From assembly GCF_000025525.1 (NCBI RefSeq), contig NC_013887.1, forward strand, positions 196,729 through 260,728: DNA of 64,000 nt, written 5' to 3'. Position numbers and translations under genes: made by a program. Source of the stretch: Methanocaldococcus sp. FS406-22. GTDB lineage: Archaea > AGJL01 > Methanococci > Methanococcales > Methanocaldococcaceae. This document shows positions 25,467-35,458 of this stretch, piece by piece; the stretch's first letter is position 1; every line of letters begins with the position of its first letter. The notes beneath the pieces are model-generated. The model worked only from the letters and a program-made list of their open reading frames with translations, was not told the DNA's origin and ran no database searches.

Positions 25467-26555
25467 TTACTTCCAAGGTCTTGCTATAACTGGAACTCCA
25501 GCATCAGGCATCCAAACTCTGTCTAAGTCAGGACAGATTCTTCTTATAGCAGATTCCTCACTTGAAACAAATATCATATCATCCTTTTCAGCAGCAATTA
25601 ATGGTCTCAACTTAATCCTATCTGTTAGACCGAACATGGTTGTTTCTTTTTCAATATCTCCATTCATAAAGATTAAACCTTGAGGGGTTCCAACTGCAAT
25701 AGCAAATGGCCCATTGAGCATAGCTCCTCCATAGGTTAATCTTATTGCAGTATGCAATTCTCTCTCTTCTTCTGGCATCTTATCTATTTCATCCCAGAAT
25801 CTTGGAGCTAAGGCAGACAATGCATATTCAACAGGGATTTTGTGCTTCCTCATTAGCAAATCCAATATATAGGCAACTACTTCAGTATCAGTTAATAATC
25901 TACACTTATAACCAAACATCTCTACAAACCTTTTATTTGTTCCATAGCTTGTTATCTCTCCATTATGCACTACACTCCAATTTAATAAATTGAATGGGTG
26001 AGCTCCTCCCCACCATGCTCTTGTGTTTGTTGGGTATCTTGCATGAGCTAGCCACATATAGCCCTCATATTTATCTATTCTATAAAACTCAGCAACTTCA
26101 TTTGGCCATCCAACGGCTTTAAAAACACCCAAATCTTTTCCACTTGATATAACAAAAGCTCCATCAATCTTGTCATTTATTTCCATAACTATATCTACAA
26201 CAACATCTTCCTCTCTATCGGCAAATTTTTCATCAACTTCATAGAAGTATCTCCAAGGTATTTGTGTTTTTTCTATAATTCCATCTTCTGTTGGTATTTC
26301 CTCATCTTTAACTATAGTTCCATACTGCTCTAAAACATTCTCAACTTCTACCTTTATCTTTTCAAACTTTGGTGTGTTGTCAATTAAAATATGGAAGGCA
26401 TAACAATCTTTATACTTTGTTGGATATATTCCATAACCAACATAACCAGAACCCTTTCCGTTTCCTCTCTCTTTTAGGCTATCTAATGCTAAAGCTATCT
26501 TATCCCCTTTTATCATTCTTTTTTTTCTACTCATAAAACCGATAATTCCACACAT
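25467..26555 (-). CDS. Glutamate synthase, class II glutamine amidotransferase subunit
   Basis: This subunit releases ammonia from glutamine. Class II amidotransferases need Cys as the first residue after Met removal. That fixes the start at ATG 26555, giving [11 protein letters not shown], behind GGAGGGTTGTTT; an upstream TTG in frame would bury the Cys. Other signatures are [31 protein letters not shown] and [12 protein letters not shown]. The 363 residues match the archaeal stand-alone form. It is the first gene of the cluster running down to the FrhB-like protein. No NrpR site was found upstream. Confidence 0.94.
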
Positions 26556-26891
26556 AAACAACCCTCCGTAGAGATATAAAAGAGATAGTTTTCTGGGTTT
26601 TCTAAATATTGGTTGAAGTTATATTTAAATAATTATGGTTTGAGACTTATGTTTTGGAATATTGTAATAGTTGAATATTATGTAGTTTTGAAAATAGAAC
26701 TAAAGTATAAAGTATGGTGTTTTCAAAAGTAATTAAAATTTTAATGGAATTTTAATATAAACCTAATTTATGGGCTTATAAATACCTTGTTTCTTCATTT
26801 AAGTTTTGAAAAATACTATATAAAAATACTACGGTGTCCCAAAATTTTGTTATTGTATATTGACAACCAAAATTAATGTATAAACTGCAAA
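26556..26891. other. 336-base intergenic region between glutamate synthase and nadE
   Basis: The region is very AT-rich with no coding frame or GC-rich island. It contains the RBS and probable promoter of the amidotransferase gene (TATA-like stretches such as TATTTAAATAATTAT near 26620-26635) and the 3' end of nadE. No NrpR-type GGAA-N6-TTCC, no tRNA and no stable hairpin was seen. Confidence 0.6.
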
Positions 26892-27653
26892 TTAAATCTC
26901 TGGTGTTGGGGGCAAAGTTCTTTTATGCTCATTCTTTTTAATTAAATCAAATACATACTCAATAGTTTCCAATGGAATGTTTGTCTCTTTATGAATCTCC
27001 TCTGGAGTTTTACCCTTCTCATAAAGCTTTAATATCTCATCCAATGTCTCATATTTGATACCAAGCTCTCCTTCATCTGTCTGCCCTTCCCATAATCCAG
27101 CTGATGGTGGTTTTTCAATAATCTCTTTAGGAACCCCTAAATATTTAGCAAGCTCTCTAACCTCTGTTTTAAACAAATTACCTATAGGTCTTATATCGCA
27201 TGCAATATCTCCATGTTTTGTCCCATACCCAACATAAATCTCTGATTTATTGGAAGTTCCAGCCACTAATAGGTTGTATTTATTTGCAAAGTAGTAGAGG
27301 AGGCACATTCTAATCCTTGCCTTTAAATTTCCGTCAGCCATCTTGTCAAACTCTTTTGTAGGAACATAGCCACCAGCACCAAAGGCTTTTAGAATATCTG
27401 TTATATCTGATATGATATATTTTATTCCTAAATTTTCTGCAACCATCTTTGCATGCTCAATATCCCTTGGATTTGTGTGCTTTTCTGGCATTATTAAGCC
27501 GAGAACTTTATCTTTCCCAAGGGCTTTAACGCATAGGTAAGCAGTGACAGAAGAATCAATCCCCCCACTTAATCCAACAACAACACCGTTAGCTTTTGCT
27601 TCTTCAACATTCTCTTTGATAAATTTTGTAATCTTATTAACAATCTCTTCCAT
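26892..27653 (-). CDS. nadE: NH3-dependent NAD+ synthetase
   Basis: NadE converts deamido-NAD to NAD using ATP and free ammonia. The 253 residues hold the PP-loop VGLSGGIDSSVTAYL (residues about 26-40), the GTSNKSEIYVGYGTKHGD motif near residue 133 and the C-terminal HKRTLPPTPEI typical of the family. There is no glutaminase domain, so ammonia must be taken directly from the cell pool. The RBS GAGGTGAGAGT precedes the ATG. A nitrogen operator overlaps the predicted transcription start. Confidence 0.95.
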   Translation of the reverse strand: MEEIVNKITKFIKENVEEAKANGVVVGLSGGIDSSVTAYLCVKALGKDKVLGLIMPEKHTNPRDIEHAKMVAENLGIKYIISDITDILKAFGAGGYVPTKEFDKMADGNLKARIRMCLLYYFANKYNLLVAGTSNKSEIYVGYGTKHGDIACDIRPIGNLFKTEVRELAKYLGVPKEIIEKPPSAGLWEGQTDEGELGIKYETLDEILKLYEKGKTPEEIHKETNIPLETIEYVFDLIKKNEHKRTLPPTPEI

Positions 27654-27673
27654 ACTCTCACCTCATAATATTA

Positions 27674-27687
27674 GGAAATATCTTTCC
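27674..27687. promoter_or_regulatory. NrpR-type nitrogen operator at the nadE promoter
   Basis: GGAAATATCTTTCC fits GGAA-N6-TTCC. On the minus strand it lies directly downstream of a TATA box (TTTTTATATATC, about 27696-27708) and 20 bases before the nadE ATG, the same layout as at glnA and glnK. This would place NAD synthesis under nitrogen control. Confidence 0.65.
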
Positions 27688-27789
27688 TTTTTTGATATAT
27701 AAAAATAGCCATTAATGTATTGCAATATAATAGATCCATATATTTAAAATAGTTAGAGTAACTTGATATTAAATAAAAAATAAAAAGAT

Positions 27790-28929
27790 TTACTCTTCAC
27801 CAGTGAATAAAGGAGGCATTCTGTTGTCGATTCCTGGAATATAGCCAAAAGTATCTCTAACTTTTAATTGCATTCTGTGGAAGATATAAGCTAGGGGGAT
27901 GTCCATTGGGCATGCATCCTCACATTGCCCACAGTTTATACAACTCTGTCCGATATGACTTAACCTAACCCCTTGGAATATTAATGGATTTGGTGGGATT
28001 TTGCCTTTCTCGTCAATATAATCTTTTTCTAACCTACATTCAACACAGAAGCAGAGTGGGCAGTTATCTCTACAACCGTAGCATTTTATGCATCGGTTCC
28101 AATACTTCTCCCATTCTTCTAAACTTGGATACTCTGCCTCTAAGTGCTTCTTCTGGAATTTTTTAGCTAGTTTTATCATTATATTTTCAATCTTTTCTCT
28201 AATTTGTATAGCCTTCTCTGAGGGTTGTTTGATTTTGATATATCCCTCTTTTTCGGCATCTTCAACAAGCTTTCTCCCCTTCTCTGAACAAATCTCAACA
28301 AAAGTCCAGCCCTTCTCAGCCCCCCAGTTCCCACAGGCTAAATCAGCCATTCTCGGAACCATTACCTCACATCTCTGACAATTCTTCCTCCTACCAAAGC
28401 CTTTTTCCTCCAACTCATCTATTTTGATAGCTTTATGCTCCCCACTCTTTAATTCGATAATAAACTTCCCCTTATCAATCTCCTCCTTAACAACATCTAA
28501 TGGATTGACTTCATAAAATAGTTCAATCATTTTCATAGCCGTAATCGGGCTAATAGTCCCCCCACAATTCAAACCAATCATATAAACGTTATCTAAGTTA
28601 ATCTGGTTTAACTTAGCTAACTCCCTAATTGCCATTGCATCACACGGTTTTGTTGGAACGGCTATTTTTTTATCAGCTAAGTATTTTGCTATCAACTTTC
28701 CAAAGTTTACAGGAGCACAGTGTAAAGACCCAGCAGTTTCTATTAACTCATCAGAATTCGTTATAAACACTGGAATACCATCATAAACGTCCTCACCCCT
28801 CTTCAAAGCTAAAACACCATCAACAAGCTTTTTATCTAATAAGTATTTAAATAAAGCAGTAACAGCCCCACCACACTCAGCCTTCTTCAAAATCTTACTA
28901 TCCGTAGATTGGATTAAAGCGTATTTCAT
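27790..28929 (-). CDS. fdhB: Formate dehydrogenase beta subunit
   Basis: FdhB carries FAD and iron-sulfur clusters and passes electrons from formate to coenzyme F420 or to the Hdr complex. The 379 residues show the FrhB/FdhB domain (AECGGAVTALFKYLL, VPTKPCDAMAIREL, GLNCGGTISP) with Cys-rich segments CQRC, CIKCYGCRDNCPLCFC and a ferredoxin motif CINCGQCEDACPMDIP near the C-terminus. It begins 28 bases after fdhA in the usual fdhAB order. The coding-strand RBS is AGGTGAT. Confidence 0.95.
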   Translation of the reverse strand: MKYALIQSTDSKILKKAECGGAVTALFKYLLDKKLVDGVLALKRGEDVYDGIPVFITNSDELIETAGSLHCAPVNFGKLIAKYLADKKIAVPTKPCDAMAIRELAKLNQINLDNVYMIGLNCGGTISPITAMKMIELFYEVNPLDVVKEEIDKGKFIIELKSGEHKAIKIDELEEKGFGRRKNCQRCEVMVPRMADLACGNWGAEKGWTFVEICSEKGRKLVEDAEKEGYIKIKQPSEKAIQIREKIENIMIKLAKKFQKKHLEAEYPSLEEWEKYWNRCIKCYGCRDNCPLCFCVECRLEKDYIDEKGKIPPNPLIFQGVRLSHIGQSCINCGQCEDACPMDIPLAYIFHRMQLKVRDTFGYIPGIDNRMPPLFTGEE

Positions 28930-28957
28930 AATATCACCTAAAATTTTAGAATTTTAT

Positions 28958-31033
28958 TTAGGCAGTATGCTTTATAGGATGTTTAGCAGAGGATATTTCG
29001 CCAATCTTTACTTTTTCAATCTTTACAGCACACACTTTAAATTCTGGAATCTTACAGTATGGGTCAAGGGCTGTGTTTGTTAGCATATTTGCTGCAGTTT
29101 CAGCGAAGTGGAATGGCATAAATACCACACCTTCTTTAATATCTTCAGTGATTCTTGCTTTTACAACAACCTCTCCCCTTCTTGAAGCTACTCTAACAAA
29201 CTCCCCATTTCTAATGCCTAATTTTTTAGCATCCTCTGGATTTATCTCAACAAATCCTTCATTTATCTCTTTTATTATGTGCTTACATCTTCTTGTCATC
29301 GTTCCAGTGTGATAGTGGAATATTATCCTCCCAGTGGTTAAGATGAATGGATATTCTTTATCTGGTAATTCTGCTGGCTCTTCATACTCAATTGGAGTTA
29401 TTTTCCCTAAACCATCTGGTGTTGCAAACCTCTTAACATGCAGTATTGGAGTTCCTGGATGATTTCCATCTGGGCAAGGCCATTGTATTCCATCGACTCC
29501 TAATCTATCATAGCTAATGCCAGTATATTGTGGAGTTATCTTCCTAATCTCCTCAAATATATCTCTTGGCGAGTTGTAGTTAAATTTATCTCCATATTCT
29601 ATTTTTTCAGCTAATTTCTTAATTATCAGCCAATCTTCTAAGGCCTCTCCTGGTGGATTAACTGCTTTTCTTATTAATTGAACTCTTCTCTCAGTGTTTG
29701 TAAACGTTCCATCCTTCTCTGCCCAACATGCTGCTGGTAAGACTACATCAGCCAATTGAGCAGTTTCAGTTAGGAAGATATCTTGAACTACCAAAAAGTC
29801 CAATGATTTCAAAGCATGTTCAACATGCCTAATATCTGGGTCTGAGACCATTGGATTCTCTCCCATTATGTAGAGGCATTTTATATCCTTTCCAGCCTTT
29901 TCAATCATTTCTGGAATTGATAAACCAATTTCATGATTTAATTCAACTCTCCAAGCTTCTTCAAATTTTTCATAAGCAACATTTACCTTTTGATATCCTG
30001 GGAATACATCTGGTAGGGCTCCCATATCACAAGCTCCTTGGACATTATTCTGCCCTCTCAATGGATTAACCCCAGTTCCTCTCTTTCCTATATTTCCAGT
30101 AATTAATGCTAAGTTACAGCAAGATTTAACGCTATCCACTCCATGAGTAAATTGTGTAACTCCCATACAGTATAGTATAGAGGCTCTATCTGCACTTCCA
30201 TACATCCTCGCTGCCTCTACAATCAACTCTTTATCAACTTTGCAAATCTTTGAAACATACTCTGCAGTGTATTTTTCAACAACCTTCTTTAGCTCTTCAA
30301 ATCCTTTTGTTCTCTTTTTTATAAACTCCTCGTCAATTAGCCCTTCTTTTATAATCACATGCATCATTGCATTTATTAAAGCTACATTAGTCCCTGGAAC
30401 TATCTGGAGATGTAAATCAGCTTGCTTAGCAGTCATCGTCTTTCTTGGGTCTATAACAATAATCTTAGCTCCCTTCTCTTTAGCTCTAATAACTCTTCTT
30501 GCAATCAATGGGTGTTGTTCAAATGTATTAGAGCCAATTATTAGTATGCAGTCAGCTTCTTCAATATCTTCAATTGAATTTGTCATGGCACCGGACCCAA
30601 AGGCCTCCCCTAAACCTATAACAGTTGCTGAGTGTCAAAGCCTTGCACAGTGGTCTATGTTGTTTGTTTTTATAACAACCCTTGCGAATTTTTGTAGGAT
30701 GTAGTTGTCTTCATTTGTGCATCTTGCTGATGAGAAGAAGCCAATCTCCTCTGGAGCATATTCTTTCAATCTCTCTGCAATTAATGATAATGCCTCATCC
30801 CATGTAGCTTCGACAAACTCTCCATTCTTCTTAATCAGTGGTTTTTTTAACCTATCCTCTCTGTGTATAAACTCATAGCAGTAATTCCCCTTAATACAGA
30901 GTTTCCCCTCATTTACAGGATGTCTTTTGAATGGATAAACTCCAACAACCTTTCCATCCTTTACAACTAAGTTGATACCGCAACCCGTCCCACAGTATGG
31001 GCAGATTGTATGGACAATCTTAAATTCGCTCAT
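28958..31033 (-). CDS. fdhA: Formate dehydrogenase alpha subunit, selenocysteine-containing
   Basis: This is the catalytic Mo/W-bis-pterin subunit that oxidises formate. The frame is interrupted only by TGA at 30635-30637, in the context HCARL-TGA-HSATV, exactly where formate dehydrogenases bind the metal through selenocysteine (residue about 133). Both sides are full-length family sequence, so this is recoding and not a frameshift. The N-terminus has the [4Fe-4S] motif [12 protein letters not shown], and the C-terminus has the molybdopterin dinucleotide domain. Total length is about 691 residues. ATG 31033 fits AGGTGAG slightly better than ATG 31036. A SECIS element lies upstream at 31448-31485. 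Confidence 0.95.
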
Positions 31034-31048
31034 CATCTCACCTTTTCG

Positions 31049-31405
31049 CTATGATGCAATCTTTTGGGCAGAAACTGTAACTTGTGGGAAATCCTTAAGG
31101 TCGATATCCCTATCCCTCGTTAGATTTACCATATTTATTAGAATCTGAGCCATGTTATCTAAGATACACTGCGAGATATCATCTGAGATTGTGGTAATGC
31201 CATTTTCAAACTCTATAGTACCTTCAACGGTAAATGATATGGGAAATTCATTATCAGTTTTTAGTTTGCAGGTGTAGTTTAGTGAGTTGTCATCTATCCT
31301 CTTATATTCAATGCTCCAAGATAGATTTAACTCTAATTTCATATTTTTTGGGTTTTCCTTTGGTCTTTCAAATTTTAGCCTTTCAATGGTTATTTTTATA
31401 TTCAT
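31049..31405 (-). CDS. Small hypothetical protein preceding fdhA
   Basis: The predicted 118-residue protein begins MNIKITIERLKFERPKENP and has alternating hydrophobic residues suggesting a beta-rich fold with a C-terminal helix (CILDNMAQILINMVNL). It resembles SecB-like or other small beta proteins only loosely, and I do not assign a family. ATG 31405 is chosen because AGTGAT precedes it; the frame is open back to 31453 but that would overlap the SECIS hairpin. It ends 12-15 bases before fdhA and is probably cotranscribed with fdhAB. Confidence 0.6.
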   Translation of the reverse strand: MNIKITIERLKFERPKENPKNMKLELNLSWSIEYKRIDDNSLNYTCKLKTDNEFPISFTVEGTIEFENGITTISDDISQCILDNMAQILINMVNLTRDRDIDLKDFPQVTVSAQKIAS

Positions 31406-31447
31406 AATTATCACTGCTCTTAGTTGGGAGGCCTTTGGGTCTTTTTT

Positions 31448-31485
31448 CGCCACCTGCTCCCTAAATAAGGGTTCGCAGAATGGCG
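31448..31485 (-). promoter_or_regulatory. Archaeal SECIS element for fdhA (5' leader)
   Basis: Read on the minus strand, the RNA folds as CGCCA/UGGCG, a UU/G internal loop, CUGC/GCAG, then the asymmetric GAA/A internal loop, a CCC/GGG helix and a 7-base apical loop UUAUUUA. The GAA...A loop topped by a short GC helix is the archaeal SECIS signature. Archaeal SECIS elements usually lie in 3' leaders, but the M. jannaschii fdhA element was reported in the 5' leader. Here it lies about 415 bases before the fdhA start, with a small gene in between. Confidence 0.85.
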
Positions 31486-31507
31486 GGTGCCATATGTTGA
31501 AATTTTA

Positions 31508-31517
31508 AGTATAAAGT
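31508..31517 (-). promoter_or_regulatory. TATA box of the SECIS/fdhA transcript
   Basis: The minus strand reads CTTTATACTT here. A TATA element at this point predicts transcription starting near 31485, so the SECIS hairpin would form the very 5' end of the mRNA that carries the small gene, fdhA and fdhB. Confidence 0.5.
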
Positions 31518-31656
31518 TAAACAGGTTGATAATATAAAGTGATATTCAATAAACCGTCCGTCATTTTTTGAATAGTGGATTATATCTGAATTGTAAGTAA
31601 AAAATTTAGGTAATATCAATTTTAGTATCAGCCCATAAGGGCCTCATCCAAATAGC

Positions 31657-32184
31657 TTAATTTAGCTTTTTGACACCTATTCCATAAATTTTTGGTTTCC
31701 AGAGTTTTGGAATACCTATGAATCCAAAGAATTTGTAATGTTTTGTTACGACTCCATAAACTTCGACCCTATCTCCTATTTTAACATTATCTGGGGGAGG
31801 AACAATCAGATTTACATATATGCTACCGGTGTCATCTTTAACCAATATTGTTGGTTTTGGAGATATTCCATAGATAATTTTTTCAATAGTTCCCATTATC
31901 TTAACTCTCTCATTTAATCTATCTTTGGTTATTTCTCCAATTTTTAGTAGAGGAGCTTCTTTTTGATAAATTGGAATCAAAGTTTTTGAAAGATTTTTAT
32001 TTATTATTGAGATTTTGTATGGAATATACACCAATCCCAAGAGAAATGGAATTGAAAGAACTGCTATCCAAAAGTTTTTTGAGATTAGGGTTGCAAATAC
32101 TACCATCCCTCCCCAAAAGATTAAAGATATTGTTGCTGAGGGCATAGATCTTGCAAACTTAACTAACTCCTTTATTTTAGACAT
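31657..32184 (-). CDS. Membrane-anchored OB-fold protein
   Basis: The roughly 175-residue protein has two adjacent hydrophobic segments near residues 20-55 (SLIFWGGMVVFATLI and FWIAVLSIPFLLGLVYIPY). A C-terminal OB-fold-like domain follows (VKIMGTIEKI, TILVKDDTGSIYVNLI, IGDRVEVYGVV). OB folds bind nucleic acids, but NfeD-like membrane proteins use them structurally; no function is assigned. It overlaps the end of fdhC, so translation is coupled. Starts at 32199 and 32193 are also possible. After the stop, GCCC-ATAA-GGGC (31631-31642) can form a small hairpin. Confidence 0.65.
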   Translation of the reverse strand: MSKIKELVKFARSMPSATISLIFWGGMVVFATLISKNFWIAVLSIPFLLGLVYIPYKISIINKNLSKTLIPIYQKEAPLLKIGEITKDRLNERVKIMGTIEKIIYGISPKPTILVKDDTGSIYVNLIVPPPDNVKIGDRVEVYGVVTKHYKFFGFIGIPKLWKPKIYGIGVKKLN

Positions 32185-32992
32185 CTTTACCATAGGCATA
32201 CCAATACACCATTGCCACGAATATCACTGCCCCAATGATATTTCCAATTGTAGCTGGAAGTTCGTTCCAAAGCCACCAATCGACTGCAGTTACCTTAGCA
32301 CCCAACAACATTCCTGCTGGGATGAAATACATGTTCGCCACACAGTGTTCAAACCCTGAAGCAACGAATGTCATGATTGGGAACCAAATCATGAAGAACT
32401 TTCCAATAACGCTCGATGCCGCGAATGAACCCATGACTGCAAGATTAACGAGCCAGTTACAGCCAATACCTTTGATTAGACATGAAAGCCAACCCATAGC
32501 CCCTCCAGATATGTATGGGAGGACTTTTACCTCGGCAATCTTAATTGCCGTCTGTCCAAATGAATTAACGACCCACTCTCCATTTTTAAATGTTCTTAGA
32601 GGCCCATAAGCCATGATTAGTGCGTATATTAGAGAGCCAACCAAGTTTCCAATATACACCCAGAACCAGACCTTTAGCAGTTGAGCAAATGTTGCTTTTC
32701 TTTTCAATATTGCCAATGGCAGTAGCATCATATCTCCAGTAACAAGCTCCATTCCAGTTAAGATAATTAGAATCAGTCCAACTGGGAAGACAGCTCCTCC
32801 AATGAGCTTTGCCACTCCAACACCCAAAGTTTGAGCCACTCCAGTTGAACAGACAGTGCATAACCCAGCTCCCATTGCAATATAGGCTCCTCCCATTATC
32901 CCTCTAACAAACAACTGATTCCATGGGAGATTCGCCTTGTATTCTCCAGCATTCGCCGCCATTTCAACAGATTTAGCTGGTGGATTGAACAT
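32177..32992 (-). CDS. fdhC: Formate/nitrite transporter family channel, probable formate transporter
   Basis: FdhC imports formate for FdhAB. The 271 residues from ATG 32992 (MFNPPAKSVEMAANAG) contain six membrane segments with FNT motifs: GAYIAMGAGL, GMELVTGDMM in the pore region, GNLVGSL and the C-terminal VASGFEHCVANMYFIPAG. The start at 32992 lies 7 bases after GGAGGT; in-frame ATGs upstream are closer to or before the RBS. It lies in the same orientation as fdhAB. A 29-bp repeat sits in its leader at 33028-33056. Confidence 0.93.
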   Translation of the reverse strand: MFNPPAKSVEMAANAGEYKANLPWNQLFVRGIMGGAYIAMGAGLCTVCSTGVAQTLGVGVAKLIGGAVFPVGLILIILTGMELVTGDMMLLPLAILKRKATFAQLLKVWFWVYIGNLVGSLIYALIMAYGPLRTFKNGEWVVNSFGQTAIKIAEVKVLPYISGGAMGWLSCLIKGIGCNWLVNLAVMGSFAASSVIGKFFMIWFPIMTFVASGFEHCVANMYFIPAGMLLGAKVTAVDWWLWNELPATIGNIIGAVIFVAMVYWYAYGKDV

Positions 32993-33027
32993 TGCCATTA
33001 CCTCCAATGATATTATTGTTTTGTTGG

Positions 33028-33056
33028 TTGTGGTCTTGTGGGGTTCTAATCTCACA
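33028..33056 (+). repeat. 29-bp inverted repeat, copy 1 (fdhC leader)
   Basis: This copy reads TTGTGGTCTTGTGGGG then TTCTAATCTCACA. It matches the reverse complement of 33500-33528 at 27 of 29 positions. It ends about 36 bases upstream of the fdhC start and lies in the opposite orientation, relative to its gene, to the second copy. Confidence 0.8.
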
Positions 33057-33210
33057 TATGTAATTTGTCATTATAAATAATTAACGATTTATCCTAAACA
33101 AAAAAGAATAAATATCAAATTACCATGGAAGAGAAAGCTTATCTATTGAGATTAACATAAATGCAATGAAAGTAACCAAAAATAATTACAAAAAGTGACA
33201 AAAAAATAAA

Positions 33211-33236
33211 TATATTAATCTTTATAGATTAATATA
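33211..33236 (-). terminator. Hairpin terminator after the YbjQ-like gene
   Basis: TATATTAATCT (33211-33221) pairs with AGATTAATATA (33226-33236) around a 4-base loop. On the minus strand it starts at the gene's own stop codon and is followed by a T-rich run (33210 down to about 33201), giving a Rho-independent-like terminator. Confidence 0.6.
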
Positions 33237-33486
33237 CTGCCCACTGGCTCTTGATAATCTCGAATCCACTTCCATAGCCTATAAGTTTTATCTTCCCCTC
33301 TTCAACAACTGAAACAATCCTAAATCCCAATATTCCATCTAAATTTTTTGCTTTAACTTTTTCTTTCATTTTAGCTATAAGTTCTTCAACGTTTGTTCCT
33401 TCAATAGCTTCAAAAATAACATCTTTTAGGCATATCTCTATTCCTGGGATTTCGTGTGTTGTTGTTATGATTATTTCTTTGCTCAT
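33229..33486 (-). CDS. YbjQ/UPF0145-like small protein
   Basis: The 85 residues from ATG 33486 (MSKEIIITTTHEIPG) form a single small alpha/beta domain of the YbjQ or heavy-metal-binding-like type, which assembles into pentamers in solved homologs. Typical features are TTTHEIPG near the start and GILGFRIVSVVEEG in the middle. The usual family Cys is present only in IEICLKD. The function of the family is not established. GGGGTGTTAGT acts as the RBS. Upstream is the second copy of the 29-bp repeat. The 167-base gap to fdhC (33061-33228) is AT-rich and holds the fdhC promoter and this gene's terminator. Confidence 0.7.
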   Translation of the reverse strand: MSKEIIITTTHEIPGIEICLKDVIFEAIEGTNVEELIAKMKEKVKAKNLDGILGFRIVSVVEEGKIKLIGYGSGFEIIKSQWAVY

Positions 33487-33499
33487 ACTAACACCCCTT

Positions 33500-33528
33500 T
33501 GTGAGGTTCGAACCCCACAAGACCACAA
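33500..33528 (-). repeat. 29-bp inverted repeat, copy 2 (YbjQ-like gene leader)
   Basis: On the plus strand this begins TGTGAGGTTCGAACCCCACA and continues AGACCACAA. Its core GTGAGGTTCGAACCCCAC is a near-perfect 18-bp palindrome. It lies 14 bases upstream of the YbjQ-like start. Together with copy 1 it brackets the 0.45-kb segment holding that gene. Confidence 0.8.
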
Positions 33529-33562
33529 ATATAATATTAAATTTGGTGATATATATAATTTG

Positions 33563-35458
33563 TTATTCCATAGGGAGGAGTATGTGGAAAGCACTTCCTT
33601 TTCCTAATTCACTCTCAACCCATATTTTTCCTCCGTGGGCTTCAATAATGCTCTTACATATTGCCAATCCTAAACCAGCACCATCTCTCTTTATCTTTGG
33701 GAAATTCACTTGATAGAATTTGTCAAATATCCTCTCCAAGTCTTTCTTGGGAATTCCAGGGCCGTAGTCTTTTATAATTATATGGGCATAGTTTTTATCT
33801 CTAAAAGCATGTATCTCAATAACTCCCTTTACTGGAGAGAACTTTATGGCATTCTCAATTAGATTTATTAAAACTTGGATAATTCTATCCTTATCAACCT
33901 TTGCAGTTAAATTATCTTCAATATCACATTTCACTTCAATGTTTTTCTCCTTTGTTAATGGTTGTAAGGAGTTTAAGACCTCATTTATCATGTCTTTAAC
34001 CTTTATATCTTTGATGTCAAATTTTATAGCTCCACTCTCTATCTTCGAGAGGTCGAGCATGTTGTCAATTAATCTTTTCAACCTATCAATGTTATTTTTT
34101 GCTATCTCAAGACACCTTCTCTGATTTTCATTTAGCTCTCCCATTAAGCCATCTAAGACGAGTTCTACATATCCCTTTATTGAGGTTAGAGGAGTTCTTA
34201 GCTCGTGAGACACTATTGAGATAATCTCAGACTTCAACCTATCAACTTCCTTTAGCTTTTCATAGGATTCCTCAAGCTCTTTTGCATGCTTCTTAAGAGC
34301 TTCATGAGATTTCCTTACATCCTCAGCCATTTTGTTAAATGCCTTGGCAAGCTCTCCAATCTCGTCATTGCTATTCACATTCACATAGATATTATAATCT
34401 CCAGAGCTAATCTTCTCCGCAGCACTCTTTAGCTTTTTTATTGGGCTTATTATGGTTTCACTCAAAACAAAAGAGACAATCAACGCCAAAAGTATGCTTA
34501 AAAATCCAATGAGAATTGTGTGGGATTTAATGTTTTGCTGTAACTCTATGAATGGCTGTTCTGGCGTTCCTACGAATAGCATTCCAATAATCTCTCCATC
34601 TGAGTTGTATATTGGCTTGTATGAAGTTAGGTACCACTTATCCACAACAAATGCCCTTCCTTGATAAATCTCTCCCTGCCTAACTACCTTGTTATAAACC
34701 TCCTTAGATACAAGAGTCCCTACAGCCCTTGTCCCATTTTCGTTTTTTACATTTGTAGATACTCTAATACCATCTAAAAATATGGTAACAACGTCTCCAG
34801 AATGTTTGCTAATCTCATCTACAAGCTTATAGTCTTTATTTAACACATCACAAACTAATATCCCACCTATAACGTTGCCGTTTTCATCAAGTATGGGTTT
34901 TGCAGACACCAAACCCAAAGCCCGGGTTTCAATGGTTTTATTAACCTCTATTGAATGCTCAGTAATGGTTATTGGAATAACGGTTTTGTTAAATAAATTT
35001 TCGTTTTTTAGGGTAGTTTCATCAATAATTTCAATGCTATTTATCTCTCCCCCAGATAGAACTTTTTTAATTATATGTTTAAGGTCTATATACCCAGTTT
35101 TATTGTTGTTTGAGCTTGCCAATACTTTACCATCTTTATCAAATATTATCACAAAGTCAGAGTTTGTCGTGTTTTTCAAATTCAATGCAATGGTTTTTAA
35201 ATCACTTAAGTTTTTGCTTTTGATTGATAAAGCAATGTTATCAGATACCAACTCCAAAGATTTGGATAAAAAATTTAATCTTTGATTTAAAATGTACTCT
35301 GCAATTTGAAGATCGGTGTTTATCTTCTTTTGAGCCTCTTCATCCATAGTTTGTATGGTATTTTCTACAGAAACAGCTCCCAAGATTGCTACTGGGATAA
35401 TTGAGATTATAATGGATAGTATTAATAATTTTCCTCTAAGTTTGAGCTTTTTCACCAT
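33563..35458 (-). CDS. Membrane-bound sensor histidine kinase
   Basis: The protein, about 631 residues, has a transmembrane helix (residues about 13-32) and an extracellular double-Cache-like sensor to about 310. A second membrane helix (about 317-337) is followed by HAMP (about 340-390), a coiled coil, and the HisKA dimerisation domain with the phospho-His in SIVSHELRTPLTSIKGY (about residue 421). The HATPase has an N box (LINLIENAIKFS), G1 (IKDYGPGIP) and G2 (GAGLGLAICKS). All catalytic motifs are intact. It follows the response regulator with a slight overlap, so the two form one operon. Its likely start is ATG 35458. The ligand is unknown; Cache domains usually sense small extracellular molecules. 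Confidence 0.92.
   Translation of the reverse strand: MVKKLKLRGKLLILSIIISIIPVAILGAVSVENTIQTMDEEAQKKINTDLQIAEYILNQRLNFLSKSLELVSDNIALSIKSKNLSDLKTIALNLKNTTNSDFVIIFDKDGKVLASSNNNKTGYIDLKHIIKKVLSGGEINSIEIIDETTLKNENLFNKTVIPITITEHSIEVNKTIETRALGLVSAKPILDENGNVIGGILVCDVLNKDYKLVDEISKHSGDVVTIFLDGIRVSTNVKNENGTRAVGTLVSKEVYNKVVRQGEIYQGRAFVVDKWYLTSYKPIYNSDGEIIGMLFVGTPEQPFIELQQNIKSHTILIGFLSILLALIVSFVLSETIISPIKKLKSAAEKISSGDYNIYVNVNSNDEIGELAKAFNKMAEDVRKSHEALKKHAKELEESYEKLKEVDRLKSEIISIVSHELRTPLTSIKGYVELVLDGLMGELNENQRRCLEIAKNNIDRLKRLIDNMLDLSKIESGAIKFDIKDIKVKDMINEVLNSLQPLTKEKNIEVKCDIEDNLTAKVDKDRIIQVLINLIENAIKFSPVKGVIEIHAFRDKNYAHIIIKDYGPGIPKKDLERIFDKFYQVNFPKIKRDGAGLGLAICKSIIEAHGGKIWVESELGKGSAFHILLPME

Follow-up and report, generated by a model that had tools for sequence, protein, structure and literature searches.

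An upstream SECIS of fdhA in Methanocaldococcus sp. FS406-22, separated from fdhA by a gene and flanked by complements of the fdhA reading frame

Gene order at the fdhA locus and the SECIS hairpin

In the window (the whole stretch of DNA analysed here, 64,000 nucleotides of Methanocaldococcus sp. FS406-22), the order of features on the minus strand, to which all coordinates below refer, is fdhC, an OB-fold-like gene, a leader with a hairpin, a gene of 118 codons, fdhA and an fdhB-like gene. The formate transporter gene fdhC (32177..33055; PF01226, E 6e-81) has an uncertain start codon. Between it and the SECIS leader lies a gene for an OB-fold-like membrane protein (31657..32184), which matches PF13567 weakly and has a homologue upstream of the SECIS in G034, a genome of another genus, probably Methanotorris formicicus. 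The conserved 118-codon gene (31049..31405) runs from ATG at 31405 to TAG at 31049 and is separated by a 12-nt intergenic gap from fdhA (28958..31036), the Sec-containing formate dehydrogenase alpha subunit gene (TIGR01591, 968.6 bits against a cut-off of 666.25). fdhA has one in-frame UGA (30637-30635), the Sec codon in HCARL-U-HSATV; this position is a UGA in each of the 31 fdhA rows compared. Downstream of fdhA is the fdhB-like F420-reducing subunit gene (27790..28929), recognized by frhB/FpoF-type models. A search of a plasmid collection returned no similar DNA.

The leader hairpin (31448..31485) is a textbook archaeal SECIS. Its 5' arm consists of CGCCA (31485-31481) and CTGC (31478-31475), GAA (31474-31472) faces an opposing A (31458), the apical stem is CCC/GGG and the 3' arm ends at G31448; the GAA/A internal loop lies between two short helices with GC pairs on either side. 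A preliminary description of this DNA had reported the hairpin with its GAA/A loop and GC helix at exactly these coordinates, and both the fold and the covariance search that it had proposed bear this out. The 66-nt SECIS segment folds at -21 kcal/mol (z -3.2), and in 18 relatives the helices covary: 93% of the cells are paired, 8 of 12 pairs have two-sided changes, and the covariation score was reached by none of 500 shuffles. A covariance model of the fdhA SECIS, made of 18 sequences with the window's own copy among them, scores the window element at 51.9 bits (E 4.9e-17). No SECIS family was matched by the hairpin in Rfam cmscan at gathering or relaxed thresholds, and a genome-wide search with a loose IUPAC SECIS pattern was of no use, returning hundreds of chance matches.

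From the hairpin end to the fdhA ATG (31036) there are 411 nt, and to the UGA (30637) 811 nt, in agreement with the earlier estimate of more than 400 and about 800 bases; the SECIS starts 449 nt ahead of the fdhA start codon, and GAA to UGA is 837 nt. A second SECIS next to fdhA, the possibility raised against this assignment in the preliminary description, was not found by the covariance model at 26000-34000 on both strands, where the next best score was 10.9 bits. Over the remaining genome, the model detected SECIS elements 3' of selD and 3' of fwuB, a less sure one in a hydrogenase gene cluster, and a weak chance match inside a coding sequence. Since the other recognizable SECIS elements of the genome lie 3' of their own genes, less surely so for the hydrogenase cluster, fdhA would otherwise be left without one. 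The assignment of the hairpin as the cis-acting SECIS of fdhA is thus supported, and the corresponding fdhA1 element of M. maripaludis directs Sec insertion in a reporter (PMC11881835). We also considered a SECIS serving an upstream gene and rejected it: fdhC and the OB-fold-like gene stop at UAA and have no in-frame UGA inside. Another hairpin, GATGAGGCCCTTATGGGCTGATA (31626-31648), has a kink-turn-like GA/GA arrangement; allowing at most two mismatches, it occurs in only 2 of 14 family genomes, here and in G002, in both shortly upstream of the fdhA SECIS.

Where the transcript begins is a separate matter. The preliminary description had placed the SECIS at the 5' end of the fdhA transcript, with a TATA box at 31508-31517. 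That the element belongs to fdhA and lies upstream of it with another gene between holds; its position at the transcript end is putative, given the co-directional fdhC and OB-fold-like genes directly upstream. The TATA-like stretch (31508..31517) does exist, as one of several in AT-rich DNA with a better match about 25 nt further upstream; it is a candidate promoter element, and a comparison of 21 loci found no TATA position ahead of the flanks that is conserved. In M. maripaludis, a 10.2-kb formate-use region was reported to be co-transcribed (PMC11097638); the text of another M. maripaludis transcript paper (PMC10450193) does not mention fdhA. Because two genes in the same direction lie directly upstream and the M. 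maripaludis region is co-transcribed, the SECIS may lie between two cistrons and not at the 5' end. By the same analogy, together with the 12-nt gap, SECIS and fdhA would share one mRNA.

Flanks complementary to the fdhA reading frame

A 5' SECIS for archaeal FdhA was noted earlier (PMC2933860). In Methanococcales, the SECIS was more recently described with flanks that are complementary to the fdhA ORF, are longer in thermophiles and project the SECIS 43 nt past the UGA (PMC11881835, 2025). The preliminary description missed both this prior work and the two flanks. In the window, the 3' flank GACCCAAAGGCCTCCC (31426..31441) is a perfect 16-bp complement of 30609-30594, so that its target (30594..30609) spans offsets +28 to +43 from the U of the UGA, and the 5' flank TATGGCACC (31486..31494), which covaries in relatives, pairs with 30592-30584 over 9 bp including one G-U, its target (30584..30592) spanning +45 to +53. 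Both flanks complement, in register, the part of the ORF immediately downstream of the UGA. The 16-bp match exceeds that of all 5000 target shuffles, in which the longest complement was 11. Such pairing would put the SECIS about 43-44 nt 3' of the UGA and leave about 25 unpaired nt between UGA and duplex.

Both flank duplexes and the SECIS are in the minimum free energy structure predicted by RNAfold for 961 nt of the mRNA at 37 C. At 85 C, for which the energies are extrapolated to high temperature and ribosomes are ignored, the predicted pairing probabilities are 0.76 for the 5' flank, 0.95 for the 3' flank and 0.88 for the SECIS.

The pairing is kept by compensating changes. Across 20 fdhA loci of the order, 89% of the flank/ORF cells at +28 to +53 are paired, and 11 of 25 pairs have two-sided changes, with 43 such cells against a mean of 10.7 in shuffles that leave relatedness in place. 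When the register was slid by 1-3 nt, a control that also keeps relatedness, pairing fell to 27-49%. The two-sided changes are spread over several separate clades. As an example, the ORF of the G001/G004 lineage changes from GGGAGGCC to GTGCATGC, altering the residues GEAFGSGAM to SACFGSGAM, and the flank mirrors it by changing from GGCCTCCC to GCATGCAC. Covariation across the order, together with the conservation of the docking flanks in both loci in which a gene is interposed (the window and G034), is independent evolutionary evidence, drawn from comparison of sequences, that flank-ORF pairing has been selected for. This controlled covariation test and the gene between SECIS and fdhA are what is new here.

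The intervening gene and layouts among relatives

The open frame of 118 codons that the preliminary description had noted between hairpin and fdhA is, judged by its conservation, a real gene under purifying selection: it is 66% identical to the copy in G034 (pN 0.185, pS 0.72). Its stop is UAG in the window and UAA in G034, so that no competing UGA stop lies inside the loop that flank pairing would form. Of 36 genomes of the class, 12 contain the family. Six other loci, in G034 (contig C31), G035, G033, G010, G013 and G007, have a member immediately upstream of a short FdhA-like gene (about 370-420 codons). In the order, the family gene occurs repeatedly in a cassette with a short FdhA-like and an fdhB-like gene (L121, L122, L123, L126, L127, L131), and several copies sit after a formylmethanofuran dehydrogenase B gene. 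From the family's place before short FdhA-like genes, the 118-codon gene seems to encode a partner of FdhA-like proteins and to have been taken into the fdhA operon.

In the AlphaFold model of the 118-aa protein (pLDDT 76), a helix comes after four strands. In structural comparison the model is matched best by SecB and the SecB-like Rv1957 (Z 6.1-7.1, about 7 over 97 residues); the Foldseek E is above 0.001, and a Z below 8 may reflect only a common arrangement. The likeness to SecB and Rv1957 thus lies in the predicted strand-strand-strand-strand-helix fold, whereas no sequence family supports it: the SecB family was matched by none of 14 homologues in Pfam, nor by the window protein in NCBIfam. 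Membership in SecB is therefore not claimed, and that the product might be a chaperone for FdhA is a guess.

In the SECIS-bearing fdhA loci measured in the order, the distance from GAA to UGA is 463-521 nt in all but two: 837 nt in the window and 816 nt in G034 (contig C30). Both exceptions have the 118-codon gene between SECIS and fdhA, and so depart from the usual layout, which is not function-defining, of a SECIS directly upstream of fdhA with no gene between. The comparison with related species that the preliminary description had suggested accordingly finds the small gene in this place in two loci only; the FdhA tree is compatible both with an extra gene that was ancestral and then lost and with spread by transfer. 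The SECIS-fdhA interval of G002 (L090) contains a possible 3'-end remnant of the small gene, CAAAAAGCTTCATCATTAG, which might mean that the gene was once there and then deleted; the remnant test gave p 0.012 with the ribosome-binding stretch and 0.10 without it, and is suggestive only. Since a 300-nt leader was assumed for mRNA folding in PMC11881835 and the window SECIS starts at 449 nt, its authors may have missed the window layout. Annotators who assume such a leader, or who restrict the SECIS search to gene-adjacent DNA, would miss this element as well.

Several other fdhA loci are peculiar. Some of them (L143-L151: fdhA of G018-G020 and second fdhA copies of G014-G016) have an in-frame UGA, and the covariance model found no SECIS within about 1.5 kb on either side of fdhA; L143-L145 have a different leader hairpin in common, AAGATGTTAGCGGTGGCATCTT. 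In G012 (L096), the fdhA stop is UGA and the frame stays open into the fdhB-like gene; read-through on this SECIS-bearing mRNA could yield an FdhA-FdhB fusion. The C-terminal end of fdhA in G035 (L133) looks frame-shifted or deleted, and its SECIS and docking flanks are intact.

Proposed docking at the Sec codon, its rivals and known systems

We consider the best explanation of the window locus, with a probability of roughly three in four, to be an upstream cis-acting SECIS of fdhA on a polycistronic mRNA, docked by its flanks onto the ORF past the UGA. The mRNA would carry the SECIS, the 118-aa gene, fdhA and fdhB, and the two flanks (9 and 16 nt) would pair with the fdhA ORF at +28 to +53. 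The loop so closed, about 820 nt long, would enclose the entire intervening gene together with the UGA. Standing out from the duplex, the SECIS would come to lie about 43 nt beyond the UGA, on its 3' side like other archaeal SECIS elements, where a putative archaeal SECIS-binding factor and SelB-GTP-Sec-tRNA could act for a ribosome that has paused at this codon. Such a ribosome would still have about 25 unpaired nt in front and would not need to melt the duplex until read-through. Because docking would fix the position of the SECIS, a whole gene could intervene while the SECIS keeps its spatial place beside the UGA. This account builds on sequence, covariation and predicted stability; from these we infer the single mRNA, the docking in the cell and the effect on Sec insertion. 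For the full picture, in which a recoding signal an entire translated gene away is docked through two flanks at the Sec codon as a three-way junction closing the loop, we see the odds as about even.

In the main rival, which we regard as unlikely, the SECIS serves the fdhA UGA undocked, and the flank complementarity is for mRNA decay, protection or something similar. Methanopyrus kandleri reportedly has a 5' SECIS without complementary flanks, which fits such a reading. So do reporter data, which allow it: archaeal SECIS elements tolerate long distances, 520-679 nt being functional in a 3' UTR reporter (PMC9622424), and in the beta-lactamase reporter in which the fdhA1 5' SECIS works, ORF-complementary flanks were unnecessary, as non-complementary ones gave the same activity, whereas complementary ones lowered the mRNA about threefold and raised the specific activity per mRNA about twofold (PMC11881835). 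That test, however, used a mesophile and a foreign gene, and a signal for decay would have no need of a constant offset beside the Sec codon, at which covariation holds the pairing across several genera, the two gene-interrupted loci included.

The flank pairing could instead be mainly a regulatory switch that sets docking against translation, either of the 118-aa gene or of fdhA, and ties expression to selenium supply. In the window, the 3' flank ends 21 nt ahead of the small-gene ATG, and in G034 about 13 nt ahead of it, beside a ribosome-binding-like GTGAT stretch, so that docking and initiation could interfere; the pairing is nevertheless equally conserved where the small gene is absent, and in M. 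maripaludis fdhA transcripts stay constantly high without selenium (PMC11097638), which makes a switch quite improbable. Hardly credible is a promoter inside the 118-codon gene that would leave the SECIS off the fdhA mRNA, with Sec inserted through an unrecognized signal. TATA-like stretches are indeed everywhere in this AT-rich DNA, but the 8 kb searched hold no second SECIS, and it is difficult to see why flank-ORF complementarity would be conserved if the two were on separate RNAs.

If docking is true, the site of action of an archaeal SECIS would depend on its position in space rather than on its distance along the mRNA, and the loop would stay closed until a ribosome had read through the UGA. 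The 2025 reporter work left the role of the docking flanks undecided (PMC11881835); the two natural gene-interrupted loci are ready-made constructs for testing docking at different distances.

Among known elements, the SECIS of selD and fwuB in the same genome have in common with the fdhA SECIS a GAA/A kink-turn-like loop between short GC helices, and differ from it in lying 3' of their genes, in the 3' UTR, with no docking flanks described for them. The 5' SECIS of Methanococcales fdhA1 (PMC11881835) is like that of the window in SECIS structure, gene, flanks and a predicted projection of about 43 nt 3' of the UGA; of the pair, the window alone has the 118-codon gene between SECIS and fdhA, at 837 nt compared with 463-521 nt.
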